Translations under genes and position numbers: made by a program
Notes under the pieces: model-generated
Told to the model about the DNA's origin: nothing
The model's database searches: none
What the model saw: the letters and a program-made list of their open reading frames with translations, nothing else
Assembly: GCF_003946145.1 (NCBI RefSeq)
Contig: NZ_RHOC01000006.1
Span: 62,001-126,000, forward strand
Source of the DNA: Levilactobacillus huananensis
GTDB taxonomy: Bacteria > Bacillota > Bacilli > Lactobacillales > Lactobacillaceae
DNA: 64,000 nt
Direction: 5' to 3'
Shown: piece after piece, positions 5,306-52,254 of the stretch
Position numbering within the stretch: position 1 is the first letter of the stretch
Layout: each line of letters begins with the position of its first letter

Positions 5306-5466
5306 CCGCATCACTTATGGGAGGAGACCCCTCATTAATCATAAACGCCCGGTAAACCTGTTCTGTCAACACCAGCCGCATCAGCTGGTGGGGTGAGGTG
5401 AACCGAACGAAATCTGGGTATCTGCACACTTCAGAACGGCTGGGGTCAGTCTCAAGGCCGCCCCCA
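5306..5466 (-). pseudogene. rlmH: Fossil 3' end of rlmH with a degenerate att core
   Basis: About 145 bp match the 3' end of the intact rlmH at roughly 90 percent identity by eye. They encode [24 protein letters not shown], then diverge. A 1-bp loss in the att core (TCTCCTCCCATAAGTGATGC against TCTCCGTATCATAAGTGATGC) shifts the frame, so the RlmH stop is read through. The sequence after the core (GATGCGGTTTT) still matches the SCC-like att flank. One codon is also missing. This is a non-functional relic of another rlmH-cassette junction and marks the left end of the composite island. Confidence 0.85.
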
Positions 5467-5487
5467 AACTTGAGACGACCTTTTTTA
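5449..5487 (+). terminator. Terminator-like hairpin
   Basis: GTCTCAAG pairs perfectly with CTTGAGAC, extended by GGTC/GACC, and is followed by TTTTTT on the plus strand. The left arm lies in the rlmH-like relic. No plus-strand gene precedes it, so its role is unclear. Confidence 0.5.
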
Positions 5488-6119: not shown

Positions 6120-7082
6120 CTACTTAATATGTTTTCGCCAGGTCTGTTTCATGAGACTGAGAATATATTCCAACTGTTCATCATTAGCTATCGATAGCTC
6201 ATAATCCCCATTTCCCCAATGTCCCGTATGACTAACATCTCTAAATAGATAAGCCGGATCCTCTAACTCCCCTTTACTTAAATTAATCCAAATTTTTAGC
6301 CTTTTTTTCTGGGGTAATAGGTCAACAATATTGTGACGTTCAATTCGAAATCCCACATAAACCTTCGTCACTTTCACTTCAAATCTAGCGTCCCACGCTA
6401 GTAGAGTTTCTTTTATCGTTGCGTATAACTCCCGGACATTCTCAGAACAGTTGGTTAAAAAATCTGCCTCGGTTACCGGTCGCAGATCCTTAACATCCTT
6501 AATCTTAGTCGTCTCACGATTTGAAACTGGACTGTCGAGCTTGGTCACATTGTTGGCTGTCCTCTGTACGTTATTTTCCTTAGAAATTTTGTTTAACATC
6601 AGCTCATTGCTACCAAATAATTTTGCTTCATACAATTCAATCGGAATATCCTGATTGTCAGCCGCATCTCTTTGGTAGTCATCAAAACTCTGAGCAATAA
6701 AAACAAGCCTTACCTGTGACCAATCAAAATCATTGATGCTCTGTGATTCATCATATCTTTCATTATAAGCCAAAACAAAGTCTGCTTTATGATTCAACAA
6801 TGTATTAAGATAAGCGTAGCCCTGATCGATTACACTATATTTAGTGGTCTTCTTATACTCGATAATAACGAATGAATTCACTTCGTCATCATACCCAACT
6901 GTATCTAAACGATACTTGCCTACGGTGAACTCAGTAGCAACAAAACTCGGTCCGACAGTTAACTCAAGATTCTCTTCAATGCACGTCTGCAGTCTTTTCT
7001 CTTTTTTAAACAAAGTTTGATCAACTTTAACTAAATTTGTACTCCCGCTTATTTTATCTAATCTAATTTTATAGAGATCCAT
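6120..7082 (-). CDS. PD-(D/E)XK nuclease-like protein with C-terminal DUF5655-type domain
   Basis: About 320 residues. The N-terminal half has a PD-(D/E)XK-type core: KYRLDTVGYDDE followed by FVIIEYKK, giving the D...E-x-K arrangement, then a helix with TKYSVIDQGYAY. The C-terminal ~110 residues (VRELYATIKETLLAWD to ILSLMKQTW) look like the DUF5655 domain often found next to such cores. Family members are sometimes linked to defence or DNA repair, but I see no partner gene here. ATG 7082 is preferred; an in-frame GTG at 7094 is possible. Base composition is more AT-rich than the core genes, consistent with acquisition. Confidence 0.7.
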   Translation of the reverse strand: MDLYKIRLDKISGSTNLVKVDQTLFKKEKRLQTCIEENLELTVGPSFVATEFTVGKYRLDTVGYDDEVNSFVIIEYKKTTKYSVIDQGYAYLNTLLNHKADFVLAYNERYDESQSINDFDWSQVRLVFIAQSFDDYQRDAADNQDIPIELYEAKLFGSNELMLNKISKENNVQRTANNVTKLDSPVSNRETTKIKDVKDLRPVTEADFLTNCSENVRELYATIKETLLAWDARFEVKVTKVYVGFRIERHNIVDLLPQKKRLKIWINLSKGELEDPAYLFRDVSHTGHWGNGDYELSIANDEQLEYILSLMKQTWRKHIK

Positions 7083-7218
7083 CACACAAACCACCCTAGT
7101 TTTCTGTCACTAACATCTGTTTTTAAGCTTATCAGTAAATATCAATATTAGCGAATAAAATCAAAGTGATATCTTTCCAAAATAACGGTAAATCAGCAAA
7201 ACAAGCGCAAGCTTCGGC

Positions 7219-7275
7219 AAATGTATCTGTCCCTAAACCACCTCAGCAATTGCATCACATCCTCCACTGGCAGGC
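7219..7275 (-). pseudogene. Fossil fragment of a ccrB-like recombinase gene
   Basis: These bases align with 9615-9692, inside the ccrB-like gene near its 3' end. Both contain AATGTATC, CCCT.AACCACCTCAGCAAT and TGC.TCACAT..TCCAC in the same order. The fossil lacks about 7 and 14 nt at two points and has an in-frame stop where the intact gene has a glutamine codon. It abuts the stop of the SDR gene. It is direct evidence that a second recombinase-bearing cassette once occupied the left segment. Confidence 0.7.
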
Positions 7276-7988
7276 TACCAAGGAACGACACCATCAATAT
7301 CTGAAAACGTGCCAGAATCAGTTAACGTATCAGCGGTAGCCAATTCCACAGTCCGCGCCACACCCACTTGTACGGTCCGATTACCGCCACCGCCACCGAA
7401 GCTGGTGTCCACCCAACCAGGATTGACGGCGTTTACCGTGACCGACGTTCCCTCAAGTTCAGCGGCGAGTTTGATGGTGAACATATTGACCGCTGACTTA
7501 GAAGCCTGATAGCCAGATGCCTGTAGCCTGTGAATGCTGGTACTGGTATCGCTGGCCAGCGTCAATGACCCCACCGCACTAGAGATATTAATAATCCGGC
7601 CAGCCGGCGCTGCCTTCAAAAGTGGTAAGAAAACCTGCGTGACATCGATCAAGCCGAAATAATTCACGTTAAAATCCTGTCGAATTTCGTCTAGTGACAG
7701 TTCTGACGGCTTGGTCTCATGATCAACCGCAATACCAGCGTTATTGATTAGAATATCTAGATTTGTGGTAAAACTCTCTTTCGCGGCAACGATCGACTCA
7801 TGATCAGTCACGTCTAACTGTACTGCCTGAGCTTGAACACCAGTAGCCCCGAGCTGAGCAACAGCGGCCTGTCCTCGCGCTAAATTTCGAGAACCAACGT
7901 AGATATACTGGCCTTTCAAACCAAGTTCTAAGGCTAATTCGTAACCCATCCCGCGGTCAGCACCCGTAATTAAAGTCTTGATAGTCAT
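7275..7988 (-). CDS. SDR-family NAD(P)-dependent oxidoreductase
   Basis: A 237-residue short-chain dehydrogenase. The cofactor loop is LITGADRGMGYELA (TGxxxGxG), the adenine pocket contains LDVTD, the structural motif is NNAGIA, and the catalytic set is S (INISSAVGS) with Y-x3-K (YQASK). The reaction is oxidation or reduction of an alcohol/carbonyl; the substrate is unknown. GGAAG sits 8 nt before ATG 7988. It is divergent from a MerR regulator at 8059, which probably controls it; MerR-SDR pairs of this kind are common in lactobacilli. Confidence 0.88.
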   Translation of the reverse strand: MTIKTLITGADRGMGYELALELGLKGQYIYVGSRNLARGQAAVAQLGATGVQAQAVQLDVTDHESIVAAKESFTTNLDILINNAGIAVDHETKPSELSLDEIRQDFNVNYFGLIDVTQVFLPLLKAAPAGRIINISSAVGSLTLASDTSTSIHRLQASGYQASKSAVNMFTIKLAAELEGTSVTVNAVNPGWVDTSFGGGGGNRTVQVGVARTVELATADTLTDSGTFSDIDGVVPW

Positions 7989-8058
7989 ATCCACAGCTTC
8001 CTTTTCTGTTATGATGGACTTACTATATCAGCCTAACGTAACGGGAGGTCAAGTCAAA

Positions 8059-8439
8059 ATGAACAAAAATAAATTGATGCGGATCGGGGCGTTCGCAAAA
8101 GCCGCTAACGTCACGATTCGAACAGTCAGATATTACTTAGAGTGTGGCTTACTACCACCAGAAAAGCGCAATAAAAACAATCAACGGGTCTTTGATGATG
8201 AAGACCTCCACTGGATAACCAACTTGCATTATTTGCGAGCAGCTGGCATGTCGATTATTGAACTGCAGCACTATACCACCTTAGTCCGTGAAGGTGCTAG
8301 CAGCTTACCGCAACGAATTGAACTAATGCGAGAACAGCGTAAGCACGTCATCGCTTCAATTGCGGATAAGCAGGCACAGCTGAAAGTGATCGATCATAAG
8401 CTGGAACGGTATTTGGCGGGCGACAGCGCGGTGATGTGA
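8059..8439 (+). CDS. MerR-family transcriptional regulator
   Basis: A 126-residue regulator with the MerR helix-turn-helix (RIGAFAKAANVTIRTVRYYLECGLLPP) and a helical dimerisation region ending in a short tail. There is no long ligand domain. GGGAGG precedes ATG 8059; upstream in-frame sequence lacks a ribosome-binding site. The gene diverges from the SDR oxidoreductase 70 bp away and is the last intact gene before the left att repeat of the SCC-like element. Confidence 0.87.
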   Translation: MNKNKLMRIGAFAKAANVTIRTVRYYLECGLLPPEKRNKNNQRVFDDEDLHWITNLHYLRAAGMSIIELQHYTTLVREGASSLPQRIELMREQRKHVIASIADKQAQLKVIDHKLERYLAGDSAVM

Positions 8440-8447
8440 GCAAGATA

Positions 8448-8486
8448 AATAAGCAGGCCTCGATGGTTTCGGGGTCTGCTTATTGT
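8448..8486 (+). terminator. Terminator-like inverted repeat after merR
   Basis: AATAAGCAG pairs with CTGCTTATT, with further partial pairing inside (CCTCGA/TCGGGG). It begins 9 bp after the MerR stop. The trailing T run is weak. Confidence 0.5.
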
Positions 8487-8492: not shown

Positions 8493-8509
8493 GTTACTTA
8501 TGGTACGGA
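8493..8509. repeat. Degenerate second att core, left end
   Basis: GTTACTTATGGTACGGA matches the att core (ATCACTTATGATACGGA) with three changes. It lies about 60 bp outside the perfect left repeat, the same spacing as the paired cores at the rlmH end (19440 and 19501). Confidence 0.6.
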
Positions 8510-8533
8510 CTTCCATAACCATCCACTTAGCGG

Positions 8534-8569
8534 TTAATCCCAAGAAAAACCGCATCACTTATGATACGG
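8534..8569. repeat. Left attachment repeat of the SCC-like element
   Basis: A 36-bp sequence identical to 19485-19520, where it includes the end of rlmH. On the minus strand the core reads TATCATAAGTGATGCGG, followed by TTTTT. From memory this is nearly the core at the ends of staphylococcal SCC elements. It marks the chromosome-element junction distal to rlmH. Confidence 0.85.
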
Positions 8570-8660
8570 TGATCCGTAACGGACTACTTTGCGATTACTC
8601 CAAGTCAGTTGACTCAAGTATGATATACTGATTCTCATAAGTAAACTGTACATACAGCCT

Positions 8661-8693
8661 TAGAGCTCGTGGGTTCGATTCCCACTCCCGCTA
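8661..8693 (+). other. tRNA-derived 3' fragment
   Basis: GTGGGTTCGATTCCCAC (8669-8685) is a perfect T-arm, followed by TCCCGCT and a discriminator A. This is the 3' third of a tRNA. No matching acceptor 5' strand or anticodon arm lies upstream, so it is not a functional tRNA. It is probably a relic of a tRNA-targeting element or of a recombination junction. Confidence 0.55.
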
Positions 8694-8769
8694 TCTGCCA
8701 TTACCGGTTCTAAGCACCGTGCTCATATCTCTATTCTCAAGTTGTCTCTACGATACCTTGAAGGGGGTA

Positions 8770-8874
8770 ATGGATATGTATATTTTACTCGCCATCTTAG
8801 CTGTGTCTCTGGTTTTCTTACCAGCGGGGTGCTTAATCCGGTGCAGGGGTAATTTGCAAATCACTCACAACTAA
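8770..8874 (+). CDS. Small hydrophobic peptide, possible type I toxin
   Basis: A 34-codon frame (begins MDMYILLAILAVSL) encodes one hydrophobic segment of about 18 residues followed by a polar, basic tail with three cysteines. AAGGGGGT lies directly upstream and a good terminator follows within 10 bp, so it has the form of a self-contained small transcription unit. The build resembles small membrane toxins of type I toxin-antitoxin systems, but no known family is recognised and no antisense RNA has been shown. The gene lies just inside the left att repeat. Confidence 0.45.
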   Translation: MDMYILLAILAVSLVFLPAGCLIRCRGNLQITHN

Positions 8875-8880
8875 TGGATC

Positions 8881-8911
8881 TGGGCTAGTTTAACGGCTAG
8901 CCCATTTTTTA
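8881..8911 (+). terminator. Rho-independent terminator of the small peptide gene
   Basis: TGGGCTAG pairs perfectly with CTAGCCCA around an 8-nt loop and is followed by TTTTTT. Confidence 0.85.
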
Positions 8912-9212
8912 TATGATGAATTCAACCACCGGGGTATCAGGCAGCTTAGGGCTGACCTGCCTACCCCTATAGTAAATACTCAGACTAAACTCATGCAAGA
9001 ATAATCTCAAAATACGTAAACCTCAATTGCAACGACCTAAGGAATGAACGGGTCACGTTCATTTCGTAAGGAGTAGAAGCGTCTGCACTTTGACGCGATA
9101 GCTAAGATGGTCCTCATAATCTACGAGAATAATCAAGCCAAAATATACCCGACAAATCATCTAAAATGAATTGGCTACTATCCCTGATACATCAGCAATT
9201 ACTCACTAGGAT

Positions 9213-9253
9213 TAAAAAAAATACGGCGGTGCCCCTATAAGGCCCCGCCGTAT
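9213..9253 (-). terminator. Terminator of the cch-ccrA-ccrB transcript
   Basis: ATACGGCGG pairs with CCGCCGTAT, with an inner GGGG/CCCC-rich part, and the minus strand continues into TTTTTTTT. It lies 185 bp downstream of the ccrB stop. The bases between (9254-9437) hold no gene but contain the repeat shared with 3022-3079. Confidence 0.85.
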
Positions 9254-9437
9254 ATCTGTCTAGTTCATTGGCCTACAAATATCTGCCCGTAAACCCGTAA
9301 AATTCGAGTGACATAATATATGCAAGATGTTCTAATATATACATACGTATAATCTAACGGGATATCGGGAAAAACTTAGCTACATTCATGTCTCATAGAT
9401 ACTTGTGCTCTCCCGCAGTATCCCCGTTCTCCCGTTC

Positions 9438-11066
9438 TCAAATGACCAGGTGAATACTCCGACCATGCAAAAAGGCAATGCCTTCATCAGACATTGCCTC
9501 TGTGTATTCTGCCAACTCCTCCGTTACGTCGCTATCGAATCTCATGTGTACCCATACTAGCTTCTCCTTGCGGTCAAAAGTGATTTTCTCGATGAAACAT
9601 TGGTAGATATATTTCAATGTATCCGTATCACGTCCCTGAACCACCTCAGCAATCAACTTGAGTAATTGCGTCACATTTTCCACCGACAAGCTAGAATCCG
9701 ACTGTACATCGCGTTCCCGTAGCGCTCTTAGCTCTGACTCAAGCCCTACCTGATCACCCAGCAACTGATGAATTCTTGGCTCCAAGTCCGATTTCAGCGT
9801 TGGCTCCTCATCAACTGTCGACTGTAATCGCCGCAACTTTTGGGTCAATGCATTGATATCACGCTGCTTGTTTGCGATGATTTCGTCTAATGCCTTTCGT
9901 TGATTAGCTTCACTAGCCTTCATCCGTTTAACAACGGCCTGTCCAACCTCTGGATCACTCAGTACCATCCTTAGTTTCAGAGCAACCAACTTCTCTGCCT
10001 CATCGGCTCGAATGCTATTGGCGTGGCAAACAGCTGAACCCTTACTACGAAAGTTAGCACAACTATAGTAGCGAATACGCTTTTTCGTCCCATCCTTTAA
10101 AGTATTAGTCGTATTGCTAGCCCTCATAGCACCCCCACACTCTGGACAACGTAGTAACCCTGTCAGAACATTGGTCCCCAGGTGATTCCACTTGGGCGTG
10201 TGCCTCTGGACCTTCAAACGTCGTTGTGTGCGTTCCCAGACATCTTGACTAATGATAGTCTCATGCTTACCTTCAACCACGATAGGATGCTCACTACGGC
10301 CCTTACGGCGCTTTAGCTCCCATTGCTCGTACTTTGCATATTGAATTTTCCCCACATATAAAGGATTATTCAAGATATCATGTACAGCCGTTGTCGAAAA
10401 TGCATTATCGCGCTTAGTACGATACCCACGATGATTCAATTCATTAGCAATAGCTCGTAGTCCTCGTTGCTGCAGGTAGCTGTCAAAGATGAAACGAACG
10501 ATGCTCGCCTCATCCTCGTTGACTGCAAGAATTTTAGTCCCATCTTCCGTCTTGACGTTGTCATAGCCGAGCACCCGATTGCCATTCATATAACCCTCAC
10601 GAGCACGCCGTTTCATACCTAGAACGACATTCTCGCCGATTTCATTACGCTCAAACTCACTGACACTGGCCATGACTTGTAGCATCAGCTTACCGGAAGC
10701 TGTATCCACTCTAAAGTTCTCGCTGATTGAGTAAAGTTCGATGTTATGGGACTGCAGAATATCAACGATTTCAAGTAGTAATTTTACATTACGCGCAAGC
10801 CGCGAACTCTTCCAAACAATCACCGTATCGAAGGCGGTATGTTCAGCATCGCCCAGTAGCTTTTGAAGCTTCTTACGCTTCTTGAGCGATTTACCAGAGA
10901 TACCACGATCAGCATAGACTTCTACCAAATCAAGGTTTTGCCGTCGACAGTAGTTCTTGATTGTCTGGATTTGTGCATCGATCGAGTAACCTTGCTCTGC
11001 CTGTTCAGTTGTTGACACCCGAACGTAAGCCACTGCGCGCCGCTGTTTCACTGCTACACTATCCAT
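9438..11066 (-). CDS. ccrB: CcrB-like large serine recombinase
   Basis: A 542-residue cassette chromosome recombinase. The N-terminal resolvase domain has the catalytic serine at about position 18 (YVRVSTTEQ) and the arginine motif SRLARN. The recombinase domain and a zinc ribbon (CPECGGAM ... YYSCANF ... C) follow, then a coiled coil at ~380-470. The zinc-ribbon segment (SNTTNTLKDGTKKRIRYYSC) closely matches staphylococcal CcrB/CcrC as I remember it. GGAGGAGC precedes ATG 11066, which overlaps the ccrA end by 8 bp, so the two are translationally coupled. Together with CcrA it should excise and insert the element at rlmH. Gene symbol by homology. Confidence 0.92.
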   Translation of the reverse strand: MDSVAVKQRRAVAYVRVSTTEQAEQGYSIDAQIQTIKNYCRRQNLDLVEVYADRGISGKSLKKRKKLQKLLGDAEHTAFDTVIVWKSSRLARNVKLLLEIVDILQSHNIELYSISENFRVDTASGKLMLQVMASVSEFERNEIGENVVLGMKRRAREGYMNGNRVLGYDNVKTEDGTKILAVNEDEASIVRFIFDSYLQQRGLRAIANELNHRGYRTKRDNAFSTTAVHDILNNPLYVGKIQYAKYEQWELKRRKGRSEHPIVVEGKHETIISQDVWERTQRRLKVQRHTPKWNHLGTNVLTGLLRCPECGGAMRASNTTNTLKDGTKKRIRYYSCANFRSKGSAVCHANSIRADEAEKLVALKLRMVLSDPEVGQAVVKRMKASEANQRKALDEIIANKQRDINALTQKLRRLQSTVDEEPTLKSDLEPRIHQLLGDQVGLESELRALRERDVQSDSSLSVENVTQLLKLIAEVVQGRDTDTLKYIYQCFIEKITFDRKEKLVWVHMRFDSDVTEELAEYTEAMSDEGIAFLHGRSIHLVI

Positions 11067-12390
11067 TTTTAAGCTCCTCCTCTAAGTCAATAAGATTGAC
11101 ACTAATCCATCTATTCATATAAACACCCAAAACCAACCCTTGCTTGTTGATTTCGACCCTATCTAGTAATCCTTGCCAAAGTTCACTTGCCACCTTGCTT
11201 GGCCCTGTAAAAGCCTGGGCAAGGTCAGCTATGGACGTTTGATATTGGCTTAATTTAGCCTGTCTCTCTTCTTCTGTCCGCCTGTCTGAGAGCAATATTG
11301 ACGCATATTCCTTTGGTGAAATTTGGCCATCCTCCAGTTCACTTAGCAACTGTTTCTTATCACACACAGGGTGGAAATTCATCTGGCGATTAGCCTTAGA
11401 CGCTAATAATGTTTGCCAATTTGACTCCCTCAGTAAGTAACCCAATCGAGTAAAAATCACCTGCTCGATGACATCCGCCGGTAGCGATATGCTATGACCT
11501 GATTGCCGACAACTATAGTATCGATATCGTTTACCAGTAGCGGGTTTACTAACAGCTTCCGGCTTTAGCTTTCGCCGACAATAGGGACACACCACTATCC
11601 CATGAAGCCAAAAGTCATCATACTTTTTCACCACATGGTTTCCAGTTCGTTTCTCTTGGACCTTATCGAATAGCGACTGAGATATCAGTGGCGGGAAATT
11701 CTCTACTCCCGTATAATGTGAATTTCTTAGTATTCTCGCTACATGGGGCTGTTTTAGGCTGAGGCCAAAATGATGATTGCATTCAGATGTTAGACGTCGG
11801 TAACCAAGTGCCGTTGACACATAGCGTTGGAATAGCCAGCGTACTACAGGTGCCGACTCCTGATTTACTACGGCTCGCATAGTTTGGCGCTCGTAATCGT
11901 ATCCATAAGGCACTTTACTGCTAGAGACCTTCCCTTGCCGAATACGCTCGGCTAAAGCACTGGCTTGATTTTCCCGCGTTACCGACCTTTCAAATTCCGC
12001 TACGGCACCGAACATCGTTAGCTGCAGCCGTCCGCTAGCAGAATCCGTGACATCAGCTTCCATGAAGCTACGAATCACGACATTATTTTTCTGACAGAGA
12101 TCAAAGAAGTCTATTAAATCGTGTAAGTTACGCGCTAGCCTATTTAGTCGGTAAACTAACACAACACTAACATCTGGCTGCTTGACGGCCTGACATAGCC
12201 GTTTAAACCCCTCTCGTCTTGTCGTAGAACCTGATAGGCCCTCATCAGCAAAGATGGCGGCTAGCGCCATCTCATGATTGCTAGTCGCCATCTCTTTGAT
12301 AATAGAACGTTGTACTGATAGTGAGTAATGGTCTGTACCAACTTGTCGTTGAGTTGATACTCTTACATACCCCACAGCTTTATTCATCAT
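11059..12390 (-). CDS. ccrA: CcrA-like large serine recombinase
   Basis: A 443-residue large serine recombinase, close in length to staphylococcal CcrA (about 449). The catalytic serine is at about position 12 (GYVRVSTQRQ) and the YRLNRLARNLHDL motif matches CcrA-type YRLNRLHRNLK. A recombinase domain and a zinc-binding motif (CPYCRRKL ... YYSCRQSG) follow. The C-terminal region after the coiled coil is shorter than in CcrB, as in staphylococci. AGGTGA precedes the start, which overlaps a small upstream gene. In SCC elements CcrA and CcrB act together, with CcrA needed for direction and site choice. Confidence 0.9.
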   Translation of the reverse strand: MMNKAVGYVRVSTQRQVGTDHYSLSVQRSIIKEMATSNHEMALAAIFADEGLSGSTTRREGFKRLCQAVKQPDVSVVLVYRLNRLARNLHDLIDFFDLCQKNNVVIRSFMEADVTDSASGRLQLTMFGAVAEFERSVTRENQASALAERIRQGKVSSSKVPYGYDYERQTMRAVVNQESAPVVRWLFQRYVSTALGYRRLTSECNHHFGLSLKQPHVARILRNSHYTGVENFPPLISQSLFDKVQEKRTGNHVVKKYDDFWLHGIVVCPYCRRKLKPEAVSKPATGKRYRYYSCRQSGHSISLPADVIEQVIFTRLGYLLRESNWQTLLASKANRQMNFHPVCDKKQLLSELEDGQISPKEYASILLSDRRTEEERQAKLSQYQTSIADLAQAFTGPSKVASELWQGLLDRVEINKQGLVLGVYMNRWISVNLIDLEEELKNG

Positions 12391-12487
12391 CGTTCACCTG
12401 CTTTTCATGATGCCAGAGGACATGCTCTAGAAGGGCTGTAGCTACCTCGTCAGCAAATTCATCGAGTGATATTTCATTTTTCACCAT
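12380..12487 (-). CDS. Small acidic protein between cch and ccrA
   Basis: A 35-residue frame that begins MVKNEISLDEFADEVATALL and ends HHEKQVNDDE. It overlaps the end of the cch-like gene by 14 bp and the start of ccrA by 11 bp, and has a GGGGG ribosome-binding sequence. Tight overlaps on both sides argue that it is translated in the operon. The sequence predicts one acidic amphipathic helix. No family recognised. It could be a small partner of Cch or Ccr, or only a coupling frame that brings ribosomes to ccrA. Confidence 0.5.
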   Translation of the reverse strand: MVKNEISLDEFADEVATALLEHVLWHHEKQVNDDE

Positions 12488-14279
12488 GATTAGCGCCCCC
12501 TTCATTGCCTAGAATCTGGTCAATATCATCATCTGGTTCAGTCGTATTGAACATCTGATTCAAAATCTGAGGATTCGTGCTTGGAGTTTCAGACGTGCTG
12601 GCATTTTTTAAGTTGCCGTTCTCATTGAAGGCCTGTCGTTGCGAGAAATCTTCTTGGTCTACATCTGGAATTACAATTGAGACAACCGCGCGACGCTTCC
12701 CCTGTATCTTCACTCGAGCAGTGTTACGATCCGACTCATTTCTCAGGTATCCGGCCTGCTTAAACGATGATAAAACGATTTTATCGCTCTGGGCGCGTAG
12801 CTCTTTAATTACTATCGTCTTGAAACTATTGGGGTAAAGGTCAACGTAAAGCTCTTTACCTACCATCGAAATCTGGCCAATTACTTCGGCATGAGGAACC
12901 GTCACACCTTTAATAATCAACTGAGACTGGTGAGCCTTGAGATAATCAATCAACTTTGAATATACACGAGAGGCGATGTTCGTCGACCAATTGGCTTTAG
13001 AATTTTCAATAGCAAAAGTCATAATTCTCTCGGCATCGATATCAAATTCTGCCGGAAAACATTTATTCATGGCAAGCGCAGTCATCCCCAGCACTGCAAA
13101 TTTCACCGCTAGTCGGTCACGGTAAACCGAGTCATCCATCATAGCCTTTGCTCGGTCAACTAACTTTGGAAATTTAGCAATCACTGCTTCACGGTTGGTT
13201 AGCACCCACGTCGCAAACGGCGTTAGCAAATGACCATAGTCTTGATTGCACACTGCTCGAACCAATTCTGCCTCTTCTGCAGAACGTGTCCATGTCACAG
13301 AATCAAATTCAATCACCCGCGTTCGCAGCCCGTCGTTTTCTGCCGTAATCGTCCCGTCGAGTAATCCATGCTCTCCGGTCACAAAAATAGTCGTTTGCCA
13401 TGAAGTTCCACTTTTTAGGGAAGCTTCTTTCGTGGCCCGGGCCTTGCTAGTTCCTTCGGCAAGGTTGTACACGACGTCGGTTAGCGAGCGTCCACTGTAG
13501 CGACTCACCTCGTCTAAGACGATTGGAATCCCTCTATCTCCAGAAAACATGATTGGAATGGCTGTGGGCGTCGCGCTAAAGCTTCTCATCAACGTTCCGG
13601 AAGCAGCTAAACGTGTTTGTCCCGACGTTGAGACAGCAAGTAATGAAGCCGTTGTCTTTCCCGTAGACGAATTACCAATCAACGAAAAAATAATACTACG
13701 TAGATCGCTGTACGCGTCGGAAAGTGGCGCCAGTAAAACGCTAGACAACCCAGCAACAACGGCAAAGACTAATGCTACATTGTCCGAAATTTTATCGTAC
13801 ATGTTAAACCATCCTTCCCTAGTTCCTTCTGGCGTTAAATCGAACGCATCCGATTTTAAAAAGCCGTCACGCTTTCCATTCAAACTAATTAATTTGTCCG
13901 CACCAAACTCAGACTCGTTTAGCCAACCAATTGAGTGATACGACAACTCAATAGATATGCACCGTCGTTGGGCTACCAGATATTTAAGGAGTTGAAGCTT
14001 GTTGGTAGGGGTAACCCCTACCCCAATACCAACCAAGGACTCAACTTCACGGGAAGTAAGCTGAGTTGCGGCGACTTCCGTTTCTACTACGTCATGTCGG
14101 CTATTTGTATATTGAAGAATATAGCGTTCTTCTCCATCCTCTAGGGACGAAAAGCCCGTAGTAAAAGCCATGGGTGGACAAAGATAGACGTATCCTTTCT
14201 CCTTCACGTTATAGCAGAACAAACCGTTTTCTCCCAGCTGATAGCTAGCCGGGATCTTAATTTCATTCCAAGGAGTCAA
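12474..14279 (-). CDS. cch: DUF927 helicase/ATPase, Cch-like
   Basis: About 601 residues from TTG 14279, which has AAGGAGG 8 nt upstream; ATG at 14297 is the alternative start. The N-terminal ~190 residues form the DUF927 domain (WNEIKIPASYQLGENGL). Walker A (IGNSSTGKTT) is at ~201-210, Walker B (IPIVLDEVSR) at ~251-260, and an arginine-finger-like GLRTRV follows. In SCC elements, Cch proteins are AAA+ helicases thought to replicate the excised circle. The gene is upstream of ccrA in the same orientation, exactly as in SCC. It shares 17 bp with the preceding wHTH-like gene. Symbol by homology and context. Confidence 0.82.
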   Translation of the reverse strand: MTPWNEIKIPASYQLGENGLFCYNVKEKGYVYLCPPMAFTTGFSSLEDGEERYILQYTNSRHDVVETEVAATQLTSREVESLVGIGVGVTPTNKLQLLKYLVAQRRCISIELSYHSIGWLNESEFGADKLISLNGKRDGFLKSDAFDLTPEGTREGWFNMYDKISDNVALVFAVVAGLSSVLLAPLSDAYSDLRSIIFSLIGNSSTGKTTASLLAVSTSGQTRLAASGTLMRSFSATPTAIPIMFSGDRGIPIVLDEVSRYSGRSLTDVVYNLAEGTSKARATKEASLKSGTSWQTTIFVTGEHGLLDGTITAENDGLRTRVIEFDSVTWTRSAEEAELVRAVCNQDYGHLLTPFATWVLTNREAVIAKFPKLVDRAKAMMDDSVYRDRLAVKFAVLGMTALAMNKCFPAEFDIDAERIMTFAIENSKANWSTNIASRVYSKLIDYLKAHQSQLIIKGVTVPHAEVIGQISMVGKELYVDLYPNSFKTIVIKELRAQSDKIVLSSFKQAGYLRNESDRNTARVKIQGKRRAVVSIVIPDVDQEDFSQRQAFNENGNLKNASTSETPSTNPQILNQMFNTTEPDDDIDQILGNEGGANHGEK

Positions 14280-14601
14280 GAACTTCGCCTCCTTCATCCG
14301 TGTGTTCTGGCATATTGGGTTTGCGCTTGGCTTTATACTTGGTCTTTGATTCGCCGCAGACTTCATAGGTATTGGTTCCAACTTTCCGAATCCAACCCCT
14401 GTCGACCGCGGCAGCAATCGCACCATAAACCTGGCGCTTCGAATAACCTTCATCCTCCGCCTGTGAGACTAATTCAGCCGTTTTTACGCATTCGCCAACA
14501 GCATAGTCATTCAATTCAATCTGAATCCCGGGTAATCCAAAAGGATGACTGACACGATCCTCACGATATGACCCTAAGTTACTTTCTTTTCCATCAGACA
14601 T
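14263..14601 (-). CDS. Small winged-helix-like protein, first gene of the cch-ccr operon
   Basis: A 112-residue protein. Its central part (CVKTAELVSQAEDEGYSKRQVYGAIAAAVDRGWIRKVGTNTYEV) reads as a helix-turn-helix followed by a wing. The tail is charged (KTKYKAKRKPN). It is preceded by AGAGGA and its end overlaps the start of the Cch-like gene, so the two are coupled. A DNA-binding accessory role for Cch, such as origin recognition or autoregulation, would fit but is inference. Its upstream region (14602-14780) is shared with the divergent cargo gene and should hold both promoters. Confidence 0.65.
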   Translation of the reverse strand: MSDGKESNLGSYREDRVSHPFGLPGIQIELNDYAVGECVKTAELVSQAEDEGYSKRQVYGAIAAAVDRGWIRKVGTNTYEVCGESKTKYKAKRKPNMPEHTDEGGEVLDSLE

Positions 14602-14780
14602 TAAAATATCCTCTTTTCCAGCCTAGTCACACCCTCATTTGAAGACGCAACTAAGCTATAATAATTTCAAGAGGGATTGCTCCTTCTTGATGAATTCAGA
14701 TTACATCTGATGCAGGCCCTTAAATCTATACCCGCCTATTTTTTTTGAAAACACGGGTAGCCATATAACTAGGAGACATT

Positions 14781-16259
14781 ATGTCAACAAATAATTTCGA
14801 ACTGGATTCACATGACCTCACAACTATTGCCATTGAAGCAGAAAAAATCTTGAATCACGAAAATCTAGGAAACACATCATCACTAAACAACGTTCATTCA
14901 GCTAAATCAAATTCACCTTTAGATAAGAAGGTCAAGAAAATAGTAAAAGACACTCTACCCCAACAAGACAGCGACGACTCAGTATATCTATTCGAAGCCA
15001 TTCCATGGCTAGCCGCAATTTCCGCTTCCAATACCCTAGTAGGTGGTCGAGAAGAACCAGCCCTCAAAAATCGGTATACTGTCCTCAAGAACAAAAATGA
15101 GAGTTTAACAAAAATCGTCGATATTCAAAATGATAAGTTCGGGTATGAAACCATTCATCACTCGCAGGCATATCACTATAGTCAAAATCTGATTCATGGA
15201 AACAAACACATCGGAGAAAGTGTGCTTGGAGAAATTGTTACTACGTTGAATGGTACAGCGGAAATTCCAAATTACATGGAACAGACTACTAAGAGCATTG
15301 ATTTATTGAATGTATTACTTGAGCAATTTGCTGTTACAAATTCATTTAATACCGCAAACAACGTTTCATCTGTCTTAGACAGAGTTGAAACTGACAACTC
15401 ATTCTCCAATGTTCAATCTCTAAAGTTTGAAAACCGATTTCCTTCTAACCTTGAAACTGAAGTTAAGAATCTGATTCAACAACTATACGCTGACCACCCA
15501 TTCACCAAGGAAGGTATTGCACTGTATTTAAAGCCTCTCCTAGTTCAAAGAGGGCTTTCAAGCACACCACCTACTAGCAACCCTTCTACTAAATCAGCAG
15601 TCTCCTCAACGCAAAAGGAACATTCTGCGCTCAATATACATCAAGGAATCGAACTATTTGCTGGAGTTAAGAATGAGCAATTAGGCACTAAGATAATCAC
15701 CAAGACTATCGACAACTTTAATACAATAAACTCTAGGTCTATAAAATCAGCACAACTAAAATCACAGATAAATTCTTATAAGGGTTTGTCTGCTAAGTCA
15801 ACGCATATAACTATTGAAGATTTTCTAAATTACGATATAAATAACGTTAGTTTAGTTAAACGTGTCGACAACATAAAACAGATTGACACTGCATCTATCA
15901 CTCAATTATTCGTTGCGCTAGATACCTTTCTTACCTGTGCCCTTTTAAAAAGCACTCAAGTAAAAACAACAACGTATCCTCTGCAAAGGGTCACTAATGC
16001 TCTTAAAAAATTCGACAATCAAATTGATGCAGGCACACTTGATGCATCCACGTTTTCGACAGAGTTATCCCAAGCCCTGACTGATGATTCCAATAAAATC
16101 ATCGACTATTTTAAACAATGGAACGAGAACTTTGCAGATTTACCGAATTCAGATCTGGATAAAATCAAAGAAACCGTTGCTAAAATACGGCCCATCATTA
16201 ATCAACTCAATCAGGCAACCAACCATACTAGCGATTGGGAAAATATTATCAACAACTAA
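14781..16259 (+). CDS. Unknown 492-residue cargo protein
   Basis: A long intact gene in the opposite direction to the ccr operon, with AGGAGA before ATG 14781. The protein is rich in Asn, Ser, Thr and Lys, has no signal peptide or membrane segment, and appears mostly helical. A short hydrophobic patch (YLFEAIPWLAAISASN) lies near residue 70. A Ser/Thr/Pro-rich linker near 265-285 separates an N-terminal and a C-terminal half. No catalytic or nucleotide-binding motif is visible and I recognise no family. Base composition is clearly more AT-rich than the core genes. It is the largest cargo gene and the best candidate for a new function. Confidence 0.75.
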   Translation: MSTNNFELDSHDLTTIAIEAEKILNHENLGNTSSLNNVHSAKSNSPLDKKVKKIVKDTLPQQDSDDSVYLFEAIPWLAAISASNTLVGGREEPALKNRYTVLKNKNESLTKIVDIQNDKFGYETIHHSQAYHYSQNLIHGNKHIGESVLGEIVTTLNGTAEIPNYMEQTTKSIDLLNVLLEQFAVTNSFNTANNVSSVLDRVETDNSFSNVQSLKFENRFPSNLETEVKNLIQQLYADHPFTKEGIALYLKPLLVQRGLSSTPPTSNPSTKSAVSSTQKEHSALNIHQGIELFAGVKNEQLGTKIITKTIDNFNTINSRSIKSAQLKSQINSYKGLSAKSTHITIEDFLNYDINNVSLVKRVDNIKQIDTASITQLFVALDTFLTCALLKSTQVKTTTYPLQRVTNALKKFDNQIDAGTLDASTFSTELSQALTDDSNKIIDYFKQWNENFADLPNSDLDKIKETVAKIRPIINQLNQATNHTSDWENIINN

Positions 16260-16375
16260 TGTGATTGCCTTTGTGCTTCTTTATTGGCTAAATCTACAAG
16301 TCTCACTAGCTCTGTAATGATAGCGGCGACAACCTTTAGGCCAATCCGTTGTAGAACAAACTTGTTTATCTTCAT
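16256..16375 (-). CDS. Small 39-residue protein
   Basis: A frame starting MKINKFVLQRIGLKVVAAII has GGAGGGG six bases upstream and begins 4 bp after the stop of the 100-residue gene, so it looks like the last gene of that operon. It predicts an amphipathic helix with a hydrophobic centre. Its end overlaps the 3' end of the convergent 492-residue gene by 4 bp. No family recognised. Confidence 0.5.
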   Translation of the reverse strand: MKINKFVLQRIGLKVVAAIITELVRLVDLANKEAQRQSH

Positions 16376-16378
16376 GCA

Positions 16379-16681
16379 TTACCCCTCCTCAAACCAGACC
16401 AGACGTCCGTCTTTAAACAGTCCCATCAAGTAGAACGTCTCCGACTCCAGACCGACAAGTGCATACGCCATCAAGTCAGTACCAGCAATATCATACACAT
16501 ACGCTATGACCCTCACTGGCAGAATCGAGTTACTGTCCGTTGGAAGTAAGTCTGGATCCAGTTCATCTCGCTCAAATACCCCCGCCTCACCAACTAATTC
16601 TTGCGGAGATACCTTCCTATTCAAGTAATTGCATGCCTCGTAAGCTAATGCTTGCTTCCACATCTGTTCATCGATAATCAT
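16379..16681 (-). CDS. Unknown 100-residue acidic protein
   Basis: A compact acidic protein (MIIDEQMWKQALAYEACNYL at the N-terminus; FYLMGLFKDGRLVWFEE at the C-terminus). The alternating hydrophobic pattern in the second half suggests a small beta-sheet domain. It overlaps the DUF1643 gene by 4 bp and must be cotranslated with it. SCC elements of staphylococci also carry small conserved DUF genes beside DUF1643; I cannot say whether this is one of them. Confidence 0.6.
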   Translation of the reverse strand: MIIDEQMWKQALAYEACNYLNRKVSPQELVGEAGVFERDELDPDLLPTDSNSILPVRVIAYVYDIAGTDLMAYALVGLESETFYLMGLFKDGRLVWFEEG

Positions 16682-17238
16682 CGCTGTTTTTCCCCCTTTG
16701 AGTTTGAAAGAACTTGGATATGCCAGTCTTTACGAACCTTGGCAGCCAATGGATGTGCTGGTTTTCCGCTGCCATCACAAAGCGTTGCTAATTTTTTATC
16801 AAGCCCCGCTTTCTTAAGACCATTTACTACACTATCTTGCCGCTTCTGGGCTAACACATTTTGATTGGTAAACGAACCCGTAGCCAAGATAACCTGCTTA
16901 ACTTCATTAGCAGACAGTAAAATGACCTGATCAGTGACCGAATCTACGCCACTCGACATCAGCTTAGGATTTTCATTAATACCTAGTGCTGAAAATAAGT
17001 TGACCATTACTACACCGTCAAATCCTAGTTGACTCACATGATTAACAATCAGCATTGTTGTCAAATCCATGACTACACCATCACTACTACCCGGAAAATT
17101 GGTAATGACCATCGCTAATTTCTTGGCCGGTTGATTCCACGTAATTCTCAATTCATACCGGTGGGTTTTGGCCTTGTTGAACTTTACCGTGCCTTCAAGC
17201 TTGAAACTTAAGGGACTCGTCATTGCTGCTTCTGTCAT
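16678..17238 (-). CDS. DUF1643 domain protein
   Basis: A 186-residue protein whose middle carries the DUF1643 pattern: LAMVITNFPGSSDGVVMDLT, then HVSQLGFDGVVMVNLFSALG and a later VILATGSF strand. The biochemical function of the family is unknown. DUF1643 genes are recurrent companions of ccr genes in staphylococcal SCC elements, so the gene supports the identity of the cassette. GGAGA lies before ATG 17238. It heads an operon with the 100- and 39-residue genes. Confidence 0.72.
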   Translation of the reverse strand: MTEAAMTSPLSFKLEGTVKFNKAKTHRYELRITWNQPAKKLAMVITNFPGSSDGVVMDLTTMLIVNHVSQLGFDGVVMVNLFSALGINENPKLMSSGVDSVTDQVILLSANEVKQVILATGSFTNQNVLAQKRQDSVVNGLKKAGLDKKLATLCDGSGKPAHPLAAKVRKDWHIQVLSNSKGEKQR

Positions 17239-17280
17239 AATTTCGTTCTCCTTTTTCTATGTTCCTATGATCCAGTACAC

Positions 17281-17326
17281 AAAAATAGGGCCAACTGACG
17301 TTGTATAGAAACGTCAGTTGGCCCTA
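17281..17326 (-). terminator. Strong terminator of the small secreted protein gene
   Basis: A 17-bp perfect stem (TAGGGCCAACTGACGTT and its complement) around a short loop, followed on the minus strand by ATTTTTG. It lies directly after the secreted protein gene at 17351. Confidence 0.9.
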
Positions 17327-17350
17327 AAGTTATAATTATTATTTTAATTG

Positions 17351-17755
17351 TTACTTGTGATACCAGCCCAAATAAGAATAGCTACCAGACCAAGAAAACT
17401 TGTACGTAACTTTACCATGACTCTTCTTGACCTTCATATGCGAATTCTTCTTAGTCAAGTTGCCATTATGATAAGTACCCTTTAACTTGTACGTGCCAGC
17501 GCTAACCTTCTTATATTTGACATTCGTTAAACTCGTATTTGCCCAACCCGTTCGAGACTGAGTGATTGACTTGGCTTTGACCTTAAATCGTATTGTATTC
17601 TTTGTACCATTTTGGTTGTAACTCCGTTTCCATGAACCTCTTACTGCCTTTGGTGTACCCTTGTGCCAAGTTGCAGCATCAGCCGTTGTTGACACCGCTC
17701 CACCCACAAAAAGTACGGTCATTGCTGTTACAGCTATCTTACTAAATTTACTCAT
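17351..17755 (-). CDS. Small secreted basic protein
   Basis: A 134-residue protein with a clear signal peptide (MSKFSKIAVTAMTVLFVGG, cleavage near ADAA). The mature part is small, basic and rich in Lys, Thr, Tyr and Trp, with a beta-strand pattern ending SYSYLGWYHK. GGAGGG selects ATG 17755. No family recognised. Small secreted proteins of this build are common on lactobacillus accessory elements. A possible surface or envelope role is inference. Confidence 0.7.
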   Translation of the reverse strand: MSKFSKIAVTAMTVLFVGGAVSTTADAATWHKGTPKAVRGSWKRSYNQNGTKNTIRFKVKAKSITQSRTGWANTSLTNVKYKKVSAGTYKLKGTYHNGNLTKKNSHMKVKKSHGKVTYKFSWSGSYSYLGWYHK

Positions 17756-17815
17756 TATATTTCCCTCCAAATCATTAATTACTAATAATTAATATCAACG
17801 CATTTAAAATAACTA

Positions 17816-18121
17816 CTAGAATGGACCTGTCCCATTCTCACGACGCGTATTCAGCATTCTAAGTGCCGAGCTCCGTTCTTCTGGCGAGTTCGTGTAGTCG
17901 TTGGCGTAATTCTTCAACTCTTCATTTGTCAGCTGACTCAACCGTTTAAAACGCGCATCTATCTTTTGTCTATGTTCGTGGTCTTGACTAAATGCCCAGC
18001 GTACTAACATAAACGCACCGACACCAATACTACCCCAAATTTTGCCCCAACTAAATCCAAATTTCCAGTGTACGAACCAAGCACCACCACCCACAATAAT
18101 AACTAGCATTAAAAATGACAT
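17816..18121 (-). CDS. Small membrane protein with charged tail
   Basis: 101 residues. An N-terminal hydrophobic stretch (MSFLMLVIIVGGGAWFVHW) and a second one at ~25-45 suggest two membrane segments. The cytoplasmic tail is charged and helical (RQKIDARFKRLSQLTNEELKNY). AAAGGA precedes the start. Lies between the Mor-like regulator and the secreted protein, same strand. Function unknown. Confidence 0.6.
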   Translation of the reverse strand: MSFLMLVIIVGGGAWFVHWKFGFSWGKIWGSIGVGAFMLVRWAFSQDHEHRQKIDARFKRLSQLTNEELKNYANDYTNSPEERSSALRMLNTRRENGTGPF

Positions 18122-18146
18122 AAACTAACATCCTTTCAACTAAAAA

Positions 18147-18404
18147 TTAATCCTCTCGTCTCAAAACTTTGTACACCCACTTCTGCGAGTAGCCATACTT
18201 ATGAGCCAACGCCATTTGATTGTGTCCATCAAACTCTTCTCTCACTCGCTGAGCGGCCAGTTTACGGTCGTACAGATGAATTGGAATACTCAATTGAGTC
18301 CCTTTGTACTGAGCATGAATACGCAACATGGCCTCTGTGCCAACTACTTCACTTAAGCTTCGGTAAAACTGGTGTAAGGCTTTAATATCAACATCTTCGA
18401 CCAT
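18147..18404 (-). CDS. Mor-family transcription activator-like protein
   Basis: 85 residues. A dimerisation half (LSEVVGTEAMLRIHAQYKG then the beta strand TQLSIPIHLY) is followed by a C-terminal helix-turn-helix (REEFDGHNQMALAHKYGYSQKWVYKVL). This two-part layout is that of phage Mu Mor/C-type activators. GAGGTGG before ATG 18404 gives the start. A paralog lies 109 bp upstream on the same strand. It may activate cassette genes; target unknown. Confidence 0.7.
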   Translation of the reverse strand: MVEDVDIKALHQFYRSLSEVVGTEAMLRIHAQYKGTQLSIPIHLYDRKLAAQRVREEFDGHNQMALAHKYGYSQKWVYKVLRRED

Positions 18405-18512
18405 TAACTCGCCACCTCTCAATTGAAATTTTAGTCGATACTGGTTCTTTTCGTAACTGCTAAATGACCTTACAAAAGTACTTACACTTTCCTTGAAGTC
18501 CGCACTAACTTC

Positions 18513-18755
18513 TTACCGACGGTTATCTCGAACCCAGCGCTCGGAATACCCATATAGTCTAGCCAAATCCTTGTTGCTGGCCCTAGACGCCTTTAAAATC
18601 GGTCGCAACTGCTTGGAGTTATACAACCGCATTGGCAGGCTAACCTGTGACCCTCGCCAATAGCCATAAATTTTCAGCATATTCTCCTCACCAACTAAAT
18701 CATTTAATTCTTGGTAAATTGGAAATAGCGCATCATAAACGACATTTTCACTCAT
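18513..18755 (-). CDS. Mor-family transcription activator-like protein, paralog
   Basis: 80 residues with the same plan as its neighbour: NDLVGEENMLKIYGYWRG, the strand SQVSLPMRLY, and an HTH-like end (SNKDLARLYGYSERWVRDN). GGAGG lies 9 nt before ATG 18755. The two proteins are clearly related but diverged, so the pair comes from an old duplication and could form heterodimers. Confidence 0.7.
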   Translation of the reverse strand: MSENVVYDALFPIYQELNDLVGEENMLKIYGYWRGSQVSLPMRLYNSKQLRPILKASRASNKDLARLYGYSERWVRDNRR

Positions 18756-18777
18756 ACTTCAACATCCTCCTGTATAC

Positions 18778-18809
18778 AAAAATAGGCCTAGTGTCAGATA
18801 CACTAAGCC
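18778..18809 (-). terminator. Terminator-like hairpin upstream of the Mor-like gene
   Basis: GGCCTAGTGT pairs with ACACTAAGCC with one mismatch and leads into ATTTTTG on the minus strand. No minus-strand gene ends here, so it may be an attenuator or a leftover. Its T run resembles that at 17281. Confidence 0.55.
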
Positions 18810-18894
18810 TTCATGGTAATAATATATATTTGAAAACACGGATAATTCATTTTCATTAGGTCATTTATAAGGAAAAGTACGTGCTGTTATTCAC

Positions 18895-18922
18895 TTGAAC
18901 AAGCTTCCACATTTTGTATACT
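18895..18922 (+). promoter_or_regulatory. Promoter of the second secreted protein
   Basis: TTGAAC (18895-18900) and TATACT (18917-18922) separated by 16 bp, 26 bp before the ATG at 18949. Confidence 0.6.
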
Positions 18923-18948
18923 TAGGCTATCAATGAGGAGGTCAACCC

Positions 18949-19323
18949 ATGAAAAAAGTAAAATCAATCGCACTAATCGCAACGACTATCTTGGGCATTT
19001 CAGCTGTCACACCACTAATCGAACCAGCCCAAACTGCACAGGCTGCTCCGTGGCAAATGAAGTATACTAACGGCTGGTACAAAGTTAAGGTCAAGAAAAA
19101 CACTAAGGTTAACCGTATCAAATATGGTAAAGCCTCTTATCAAAATAAAGTCTCGGGAAGTTACACCTTACATAAAGGAGCTGTCGTAAAAATTAGCTAT
19201 CTAGGTCGAGATGGCTTCGATTGGCTGCTTAAAAGTCCACATAAATACAAATGGACCAGCAAGCACGCGTACAGTGCCCATTTCAAAAAAGGATCATTTA
19301 CCGTACTTAAACACTATAAATAA
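18949..19323 (+). CDS. Small secreted basic protein
   Basis: 124 residues with a signal peptide (KKVKSIALIATTILGISAV, cleavage near AQAA). The mature region is short, basic and aromatic-rich (WQMKYTNGWYKVKVKK ... HYK), with strands typical of a small beta-barrel or SH3-like fold. GAGGAGG gives a strong start. It is the cassette gene nearest rlmH, and is convergent with rlmH transcription. Function unknown; similar in style, though not obviously homologous, to the protein at 17351. Confidence 0.7.
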   Translation: MKKVKSIALIATTILGISAVTPLIEPAQTAQAAPWQMKYTNGWYKVKVKKNTKVNRIKYGKASYQNKVSGSYTLHKGAVVKISYLGRDGFDWLLKSPHKYKWTSKHAYSAHFKKGSFTVLKHYK

Positions 19324-19331
19324 GCACCTAG

Positions 19332-19362
19332 AGCCACCTGAGATAATCGGGTGGCTTTTACT
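19332..19362 (+). terminator. Rho-independent terminator
   Basis: AGCCACC pairs with GGTGGCT and is followed by TTTTA, just after the secreted protein gene. Confidence 0.8.
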
Positions 19363-19439
19363 CTATACAGCTCATGTCAGGGTTGGCAAGAAATCACCAG
19401 TATACCTTGGAGGGCGCGGACCCTCACAATTTCTTAAAA

Positions 19440-19459
19440 CCGCACTACTTATGATACGG
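19440..19459. repeat. Second att core near rlmH
   Basis: CCGCACTACTTATGATACGG differs from the core at 19501-19520 by one base. The two cores are 61 bp apart, matching the spacing of the paired cores at the left end (8490s and 8550). Confidence 0.7.
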
Positions 19460-19484
19460 ACTACCGTAACTCCCCACTCAGCGA

Positions 19485-19520
19485 TTAATCCCAAGAAAAA
19501 CCGCATCACTTATGATACGG
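19485..19520. repeat. Right attachment repeat, overlapping the rlmH stop
   Basis: Identical over 36 bp to 8534-8569. On the minus strand it supplies the last rlmH codons (P-Y-H-K) and stop and continues as GATGCGGTTTTT. The Ccr target inside rlmH is therefore rebuilt on insertion and the gene stays intact. Confidence 0.88.
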
Positions 19521-19985
19521 AGATCCTTCATTAATCATAAATGCCCGATAAACCTGCTCCGTCAGCACCAGCCGCATCAGTTGGTGGGGTAAGGTGAACC
19601 GGCCAAACGAAATCTGGGTATCTGCACGCTTCAGAACGGCTGGGGTCAGTCCCAAGGACCCCCCAATGACGAACGTGATATCTGAGTGGCCGTAGGTCGT
19701 TAAGTCCTTGATCTCCTTGGCAAACTCCTCTGATGAGCGTTCCTTACCGAGAATAGCCAGTGCATAAACGTATTCACGGTCCTTAATCTTGCTCAGGATC
19801 CGTTCCCCTTCCGCAGCCATCACCTGGTCCATTTCTGCCTGTGACAGGTTTTCTGGGGCCTTTTCATCCGGCACCTCAACAATACTAAATTTACAGAAAC
19901 GCGAAAGTCGCTTAGCATACTCTGCGATCCCTTGTTTAAAGTACTTTTCCTTTAACTTACCGACGACGACAAACTTGATGTTCAT
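19506..19985 (-). CDS. rlmH: 23S rRNA (pseudouridine-1915-N3)-methyltransferase
   Basis: 159 residues, the usual RlmH length. It is a SPOUT-class methyltransferase that modifies pseudouridine 1915 in helix 69 of 23S rRNA with S-adenosylmethionine. Visible motifs are [20 protein letters not shown] at the N-terminus, the SAM knot around [11 protein letters not shown], and the conserved end [27 protein letters not shown] selects ATG 19985. This is the gene called orfX in staphylococci, where SCC elements insert at the same 3' end. A diverged copy of its end lies at 5306-5466. Confidence 0.97.
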
Positions 19986-20006
19986 AATTATCCTCCTATG
20001 CACAGG

Positions 20007-47368: not shown

Positions 47369-47389
47369 ATCTTTACCCTCCGTTCTTCA

Positions 47390-49336: not shown

Positions 49337-49339
49337 TGC

Positions 49340-52227: not shown

Positions 52228-52254
52228 TAGTGATGACACTCCTTTACTTGGTGC

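Follow-up and report, generated by a model that had tools for sequence, protein, structure and literature searches.

Staphylococcal cassette chromosome (SCC) elements have been studied mostly for methicillin resistance. In Enterococcus, the Enterococcus cassette chromosome (ECC) carries ccrAB at the 3' end of rlmH and has an attachment (att) site of ~50 bp containing TATCATAA; the passages of the ECC paper drawn on here also describe inverted repeats in attR, variable cargo and multiple att sites (PMC6222049). Islands at rlmH that encode large serine recombinases and PolA-SSB primases are described for several Bacillota in the parts used of a second paper (PMC10061031). Here, a stretch of 64,000 nucleotides from Levilactobacillus huananensis (contig NZ_RHOC01000006.1, positions 62,001 to 126,000; the window) is found to hold an element at the same gene. 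Taken together, its anatomy, homology and surroundings make it very likely that this is a Lactobacillaceae cassette chromosome of the SCC type that sits at the 3' end of rlmH, that its Ccr recombinases would excise, and that occupies a slot filled by kindred islands in other genomes.

The element is bounded by a direct repeat of 36 bp, identical at 36 of 36 positions, with copies 10,951 bp apart; as a first-pass annotation of this DNA had claimed, one copy, the right-hand one, carries the rlmH stop codon. This pair is the sole exact direct repeat of at least 24 bp in the window (the test covered direct repeats), and a chance origin was rejected on that ground. The copies lie within a larger repeat of 81 nt and 89% identity (8495-8575 and 19446-19526), which exists because each cassette end has two att-like sequences ~60 bp apart, each resembling the codons of the RlmH C-terminus. 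The cassette is integrated in the 3' end of rlmH, and its flanking repeats contain the att core TATCATAA, a motif taken from the cited passages of PMC6222049. The listed rlmH start is a GTG that may not be the true one; MNIKF... begins just inside it.

Going away from rlmH, the genes are orf124, mor80, mor91, orf101, orf139, the DUF1643 gene, orf100, orf492, orf112, cch, ccrA and ccrB (Table 1), followed by ~0.9 kb without any open reading frame (ORF) of 60 amino acids. A Cch-type helicase thus stands directly ahead of ccrA. The cch product has Walker A and Walker B motifs and is matched by PDB entry 5dgk ('Active helicase'; expectation value, E, 4.9e-53), which we take to be the SCCmec helicase. 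As listed, the cch start overlaps orf112, and the true start therefore probably lies further in. The earlier assignment of cch-, ccrA- and ccrB-like genes in SCC order together with a DUF1643 gene agrees with the Pfam and NCBIfam matches, and the same run occurs in a staphylococcal SCCmec. The view of DUF1643 as different cargo has to be dropped, since this gene also lies beside ccrAB in that SCCmec. No resistance gene appears among the Pfam and NCBIfam family matches, and the nine non-core cassette proteins scanned gave no PADLOC match at E 0.01. A fold model of the orf492 product, with a mean predicted local distance difference test (pLDDT) of 33, was not used to assign a function.

Table 1. 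Coordinates of the cassette, its att sites and its neighbours in the window (a point marks features given without strand)
Feature	Position	Strand	Evidence or remark
Truncated 3' end of rlmH, with att	5292..5467	-	88% identical to rlmH; ~14 kb from the gene
PDC-S18 candidate defence gene	6120..7094	-	PADLOC PDC-S18, 372 bits; outside the 36-bp repeats
SDR-family gene, partner of merR	7275..7994	-	named by eye
merR	7978..8439	+	with the SDR gene, right-hand flank in 12/34 genus genomes
Hairpin between att2 and merR	8448..8484	.	also in right-hand flanks of other species
att2, second att-like copy, chromosomal side	8495..8515	-	
Distal att	8534..8569	.	36-bp perfect repeat; dyad on cassette side
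tRNA T-arm-like sequence	8669..8692	+	~100 bp inside distal cassette end; common to G003 and G033
ccrB, large serine recombinase	9438..11066	-	Pfam, NCBIfam, tree; YVRVST motif; start overlaps ccrA end by 8 bp
ccrA, large serine recombinase	11059..12390	-	Pfam, NCBIfam, tree; YVRVST motif
cch, AAA+ cassette helicase (DUF927 and Cch helix-turn-helix)	12474..14453	-	PF06048 143 bits; PF18662 41 bits
orf112, upstream of cch, perhaps winged-helix	14263..14601	-	weak MCM_C match, E 0.007, under cut-off
orf492	14781..16259	+	no Pfam, PHROG or PADLOC match
orf100	16379..16681	-	weak relatives in other lactobacillar cassettes
DUF1643 gene	16678..17238	-	PF07799 65 bits (cut-off 22.5)
orf139, small protein	17351..17770	-	
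orf101	17816..18121	-	relatives in G003, G012, G032 and G033
mor91, Mor-family transcription activator	18147..18422	-	PF08765 43.8 bits (cut-off 24.9)
mor80, late-activator-like helix-turn-helix protein	18513..18755	-	phrog_836, E 4.1e-7
orf124, small protein	18949..19323	+	weak PHROG matches of unknown function; 69% relative in G003
Inner att-like copy, ~60 bp within cassette	19446..19466	-	
rlmH-side att	19485..19520	.	36-bp perfect repeat; includes rlmH stop
rlmH, integration target	19506..20003	-	NCBIfam RlmH 259 bits; last codons = att core

The relationship of the recombinases to those of SCC was read from a tree of 76 rows from 51 chosen loci (ORFs of at least 300 amino acids) with three named phage integrases. 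The tree is midpoint-rooted for drawing only and omits four rows (L117, L119, L276 and L284; L labels denote loci and G labels genomes, G000 being the source), one of them short and the others without firm reason. Of the seven lactobacillar CcrB rows, six group in one clade (support 100/97), sister to staphylococcal CcrB (97/82), the label of the ten staphylococcal rows resting on one Staphylococcus epidermidis row beside nine of one genus. The seventh, from Latilactobacillus, branches outside the lactobacillar clade, staphylococcal CcrB and Vagococcus. CcrA falls in a clade (100/100) of staphylococci, lactobacilli, Vagococcus and one viral contig, whose inner order is weak and which has several long branches. 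Both source proteins are therefore members of SCC clades, CcrB at 97/82 and CcrA in the wider sense. Identity to the staphylococcal rows is ~42-45% for CcrB and ~25-31% for CcrA.

The same tree bears on the possibility that the element is a phage, or a phage satellite, with a large serine integrase at rlmH. The Mor-family and late-activator matches would suit such an origin, as would the presence of some CcrB relatives on viral-labelled contigs. However, the three named phage integrases and the other phage-labelled rows all lie outside the CcrA and CcrB clades, and a grouping with phage integrases is what the first-pass annotation had named beforehand as speaking against an SCC identity. Out of 131 phage records, the 20 listed show 27.5-31.5% identity to CcrB, and a PHROG scan of 10 of the 12 cassette proteins (all but those of ccrA and ccrB) gave no capsid, terminase or tail match. 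A phage origin is accordingly rated as highly improbable, and a serine-integrase prophage was rejected for want of both a phage-clade integrase and, in the 10 proteins, structural genes. Separately, L184 and L185, on viral-labelled contigs, carry paired Ccr-like recombinases; one of these matches the source CcrB at 53% identity across ~366 residues, and its nearest neighbor in the tree is Vagococcus.

As had been proposed, a wider family of ccrA-ccrB cassettes at rlmH, mostly with cch, is present in Lactobacillaceae: in the source genus and in Liquorilactobacillus, Lentilactobacillus and Latilactobacillus. Among 397 family genomes including the source (one per species; CcrB at E 1e-60 or better), CcrB occurs in at least seven, all downstream of rlmH; the count is a lower bound that excludes G025, a genome from the genus search with its gene truncated at a contig end. 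A Mor-type gene accompanies all seven cassettes, cch six of them (it was not found in the ccr cassette of Liquorilactobacillus uvarum) and DUF1643 four. Further carriers include Liquorilactobacillus aquaticus, L. capillatus, Lentilactobacillus senioris and Latilactobacillus graminis. Both cassette ends carry the att core in L. capillatus (a cassette of 19,199 bp) and, with one change in the distal core, in Lentilactobacillus senioris (14,158 bp); Latilactobacillus graminis has a distal rlmH-end repeat. Mor genes were rejected as a cassette-only marker, a Mor-like match being present in 27 of 35 genus genomes; the five best matches (88-99%) lie at rlmH, that of G016 (65%) lies ~13 kb past it, and the rest are mostly elsewhere.

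Across the class Bacilli, CcrB at E 1e-80 or better is found in 42 of 398 genomes (source included) and 25 of 146 genera. In the 41 other genomes, a CcrB-like match and rlmH share a contig in 34; the nearest match is within 40 kb of rlmH in 33 of these 34 and within 300 bp in 12. Further copies of the rlmH end lie downstream in Lysinibacillus sphaericus 2362 (three good, one poor) and Heyndrickxia ginsengihumi (two). A kinship with plasmids was considered and set aside: there is no match at the DNA level, and the protein level (E 1e-60) yields four records, three staphylococcal and one from Paenibacillus. One plasmid record, L264, is a 386-kb MOBV-typed entry from Staphylococcus epidermidis in which the core genes of SCCmec occur together with mecA.

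Of the 35 genus genomes, 34 gave an rlmH match, and the DNA beyond this gene looks like a genus-wide cassette slot. The stretch past rlmH (up to 20 kb, less at contig ends) was searched for the core CCGTATCATAAGTGATGCGG, allowing four mismatches at most. In the 530,089 bases thus covered in 34 genomes there are 33 forward sites, no reverse site and none for a mirrored control. At least 18 of the 34 genomes have a distal att copy more than 300 bp away, and nineteen distal cassette-type sites share a cassette-side dyad (majority TACGGnTCnCCGTA). Two irregular rlmH loci were seen: L069 (G007) has a second, divergent rlmH-like stretch, 35% identical over part of the protein, ~4.0-4.3 kb past rlmH in the variable region, and L094 (G015) has rlmH matches in two frames, indicating a broken gene or a sequencing error.

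A CcrB match at E 1e-30 is missing from 15 of the 18 genomes in which a distal att occurs. One explanation would be that the ccr-less islands are unrelated to Ccr, their rlmH ends being repeated as other integrases use the same site. The different layout of the 12 Bacilli genomes in which a CcrB-like recombinase lies right beside rlmH could be taken in the same sense. However, islands with and without ccr resemble each other in the att core and in its cassette-side dyad, no site is reversed, and some ccr-less islands contain remnants of the source-type cassette. An origin apart from Ccr is therefore considered clearly unlikely for these islands.

Close species were compared across the slot. 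In G010, G028 and G029, the rlmH stretch is 94.4-95.3% identical and the merR-SDR stretch 93.6-94.6% identical, and the DNA between these flanks differs save for att and short pieces. On the rlmH side, homology runs 4 to 64 bp beyond the final codon of rlmH and then stops. G012 and G021 present a like pattern. Unlike DNA between like flanks is the pattern that site-specific cassette exchange would leave. Where merR is the right-hand flank, it lies 2,194 bp (G032) to 17,624 bp from rlmH. The order att1, 60 bp, att2, hairpin and merR aligns in five species, with 128-139 bp from att to merR. Judged from this alignment, the module would be the chromosomal right flank, and thus the form that an empty site would take.

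Several observations weigh against an SCC-type cassette that is still exchanged. First, ccr is rare in the genus, with CcrB in just three of 35 genomes at E 1e-30. Second, all three NCBIfam scores lie under their equivalog cut-offs (SCCmet_CcrB 536 bits, cut-off 900; SCCmet_CcrA 160, cut-off 700; SCCmet_Cch1 214, cut-off 700); the proteins are therefore homologous but divergent, which marks a relative of SCC rather than a staphylococcal element that has changed host. Third, the tie to rlmH is not universal in Bacilli: the sole CcrB-like match of G666 is 2.3 Mb from rlmH, seven genomes have the match on another contig than rlmH, and a second match lies far from rlmH in G716 at least. Fourth, no empty rlmH site was found among the 12 genus genomes with merR; the DNA taken past rlmH in the remaining 22 showed no merR, stopping in some of them at a contig end within 1-8 kb, and does not allow a verdict on emptiness. 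Since no empty site was seen, movement of the cassette is something that we infer. Finally, the cassette of G003 has a ccrB split over two frames, and its backbone is 77-88% identical to that of the source at the DNA level, as compared to 84.6% for rlmH and 85.6% for merR-SDR. As cassette and core have diverged alike, a recent transfer between the two is not indicated, and a recent spread of the ccr cassette between them is not supported.

Together, the last two points raise the possibility of an old cassette that is no longer mobile: one that came by Ccr recombination long ago and has since been inherited with the chromosome, the variety of the locus stemming from homologous recombination in the flanks and from deletion. 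This would agree with an SCC identity and differ on present mobility. Decayed pieces of the source-type cassette (the Mor module and the start of DUF1643) beside merR in G010, G012 and G032 can be counted in its favor. On the other hand, the source recombinases and cch are open and retain their motifs, both source att cores are identical over 36 bp, and homology on the rlmH side of the close species ends at or near the att core. In addition, a tree built from rlmH and the DNA upstream of it in 30 of the 34 genomes, in which G022 stands on a very long branch, does not place the source and G003 as sisters. Loss of mobility is thus judged somewhat unlikely. Both an old presence with many losses and an old transfer fit the occurrence in these two genomes. 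The G003 cassette is also a mosaic. Over cch-ccrA it matches the source at the protein level (45% identity) but not at the DNA level, and this block was therefore probably exchanged; its orf492 counterpart is interrupted.

If the cassette remains mobile, as preferred here, its movement likely involves the following steps. Most likely, CcrA and CcrB, whose catalytic activity is predicted, would bring the two att sites, rlmH-side and distal, together and recombine them at the shared core CCGTATCATAAGTGATGCGG. Excision would yield a circle of 10,951 bp, an intact rlmH and a short intergene of att1, 60 bp, att2, hairpin and merR. The reverse reaction would insert a cassette into the rlmH of a recipient. 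Cch, an AAA+ helicase, perhaps together with the orf112 product, probably assists in replicating the circle once it is excised; activation of cassette genes probably falls to the Mor-type genes. Most simply, the ccr-less islands with the same att would either be cassettes that Ccr mobilizes in trans or former ccr carriers that have lost this gene set. A broader proposal is offered tentatively, with a little less than even confidence. In it, rlmH would be a Bacilli-wide docking site for one old group of Ccr-like recombinases, with staphylococcal SCC as one branch; in the genus, small ccr-less cassettes, some with phage-defense-like cargo, would be swapped between species by a few ccr-bearing helpers in trans, and the doubled att module would survive as the empty form.

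The cargo of the islands was sampled by collecting 86 ORFs and scanning 30 of them singly, with 20 chromosomal ORFs from the window as controls. PADLOC matches at E 1e-5 were obtained for 12 of the 30 cargo ORFs versus 4 of the 20 controls, and matches of at least 100 bits for 5 versus none; a RecF-like control reached 98 bits. By batch, the matches number 9 of 10 (the nine largest ORFs and one neighbor), 0 of 10 and 3 of 10. Some of the weaker matches may reflect general ATPase or kinase domains. The island of G021 has HerA and SIR2 of the SIR2-HerA type, both scanned, and that of G018 has a scanned HerA of this type with a presumed SIR2; PDC-M46 occurs in G029 and PDC-M68B in G019. A strong claim of defense islands was weakened by the matches among the controls and by the many cargo proteins without a match. 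The literature search found no papers naming defense islands at rlmH.

The PDC-S18 candidate gene has the truncated, att-bearing rlmH end close by, and a second cassette event is therefore likely there. A shorter rlmH end ahead of merR was also seen in G008. For the T-arm-like sequence at the distal end, no second copy was found in the source genome with up to three mismatches allowed. Further along the window, look-alikes of gyrA, gyrB, recF, dnaN and dnaA (named by eye) occupy 44831-53956, and the guanine-cytosine skew turns near 51 kb; rlmH is thus likely ~32 kb from the replication origin.

Taken in aggregate, the ccrAB-cch cassette in lactobacilli, its relatives in three other genera and the CcrB-like genes near rlmH in many Bacilli place SCC within a wider family. 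Lactobacilli offer harmless hosts for studying the excision, copying and movement of such cassettes, and the rlmH end in these bacteria is a place to look for exchanged cargo, including candidate phage-defense genes. The element adds a lactobacillar member to a kind already known in staphylococci, Enterococcus and other Bacillota. The earlier description of the family as little described is borne out for Lactobacillaceae, where no work on SCC or rlmH cassettes was found by title among the open-licence papers listed, most subscription journals being outside the search. It does not extend beyond that family, rlmH elements being known from Enterococcus (PMC6222049) and other Bacillota (PMC10061031) in the passages cited.

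Compared with the Bacillota islands, in the portions of PMC10061031 used here, the lactobacillar islands are alike in lying downstream of rlmH, in a second end recognized by the last rlmH bases, in composites, in a helicase ahead of the recombinase and in conflict-related genes; the main text of that paper makes no mention of lactobacilli. ECC shares the rlmH site, ccrAB, an att with TATCATAA, the attR dyad, variable cargo and multiple att sites, a likeness drawn from its description and not from ccrAB sequence; in the main text of PMC6222049, 'helicase' occurs twice, and 'cch' and 'lactobac' do not occur. Staphylococcal SCC has the same target, rlmH, and an att containing TATCATAA, as given in passages of that paper (PMC6222049). 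A staphylococcal SCCmec also has the same run of a small gene of the size and place of orf112, cch (DUF927), ccrA and ccrB, with DUF1643 near. In that SCCmec, SAUGI and DUF960 genes lie beside ccrB and DUF1643 comes after them; Mor-type genes are the contrasting feature of the lactobacillar cassette. The lactobacillar cassette further differs from staphylococcal SCC in its host family and in the doubled att at both of its ends.

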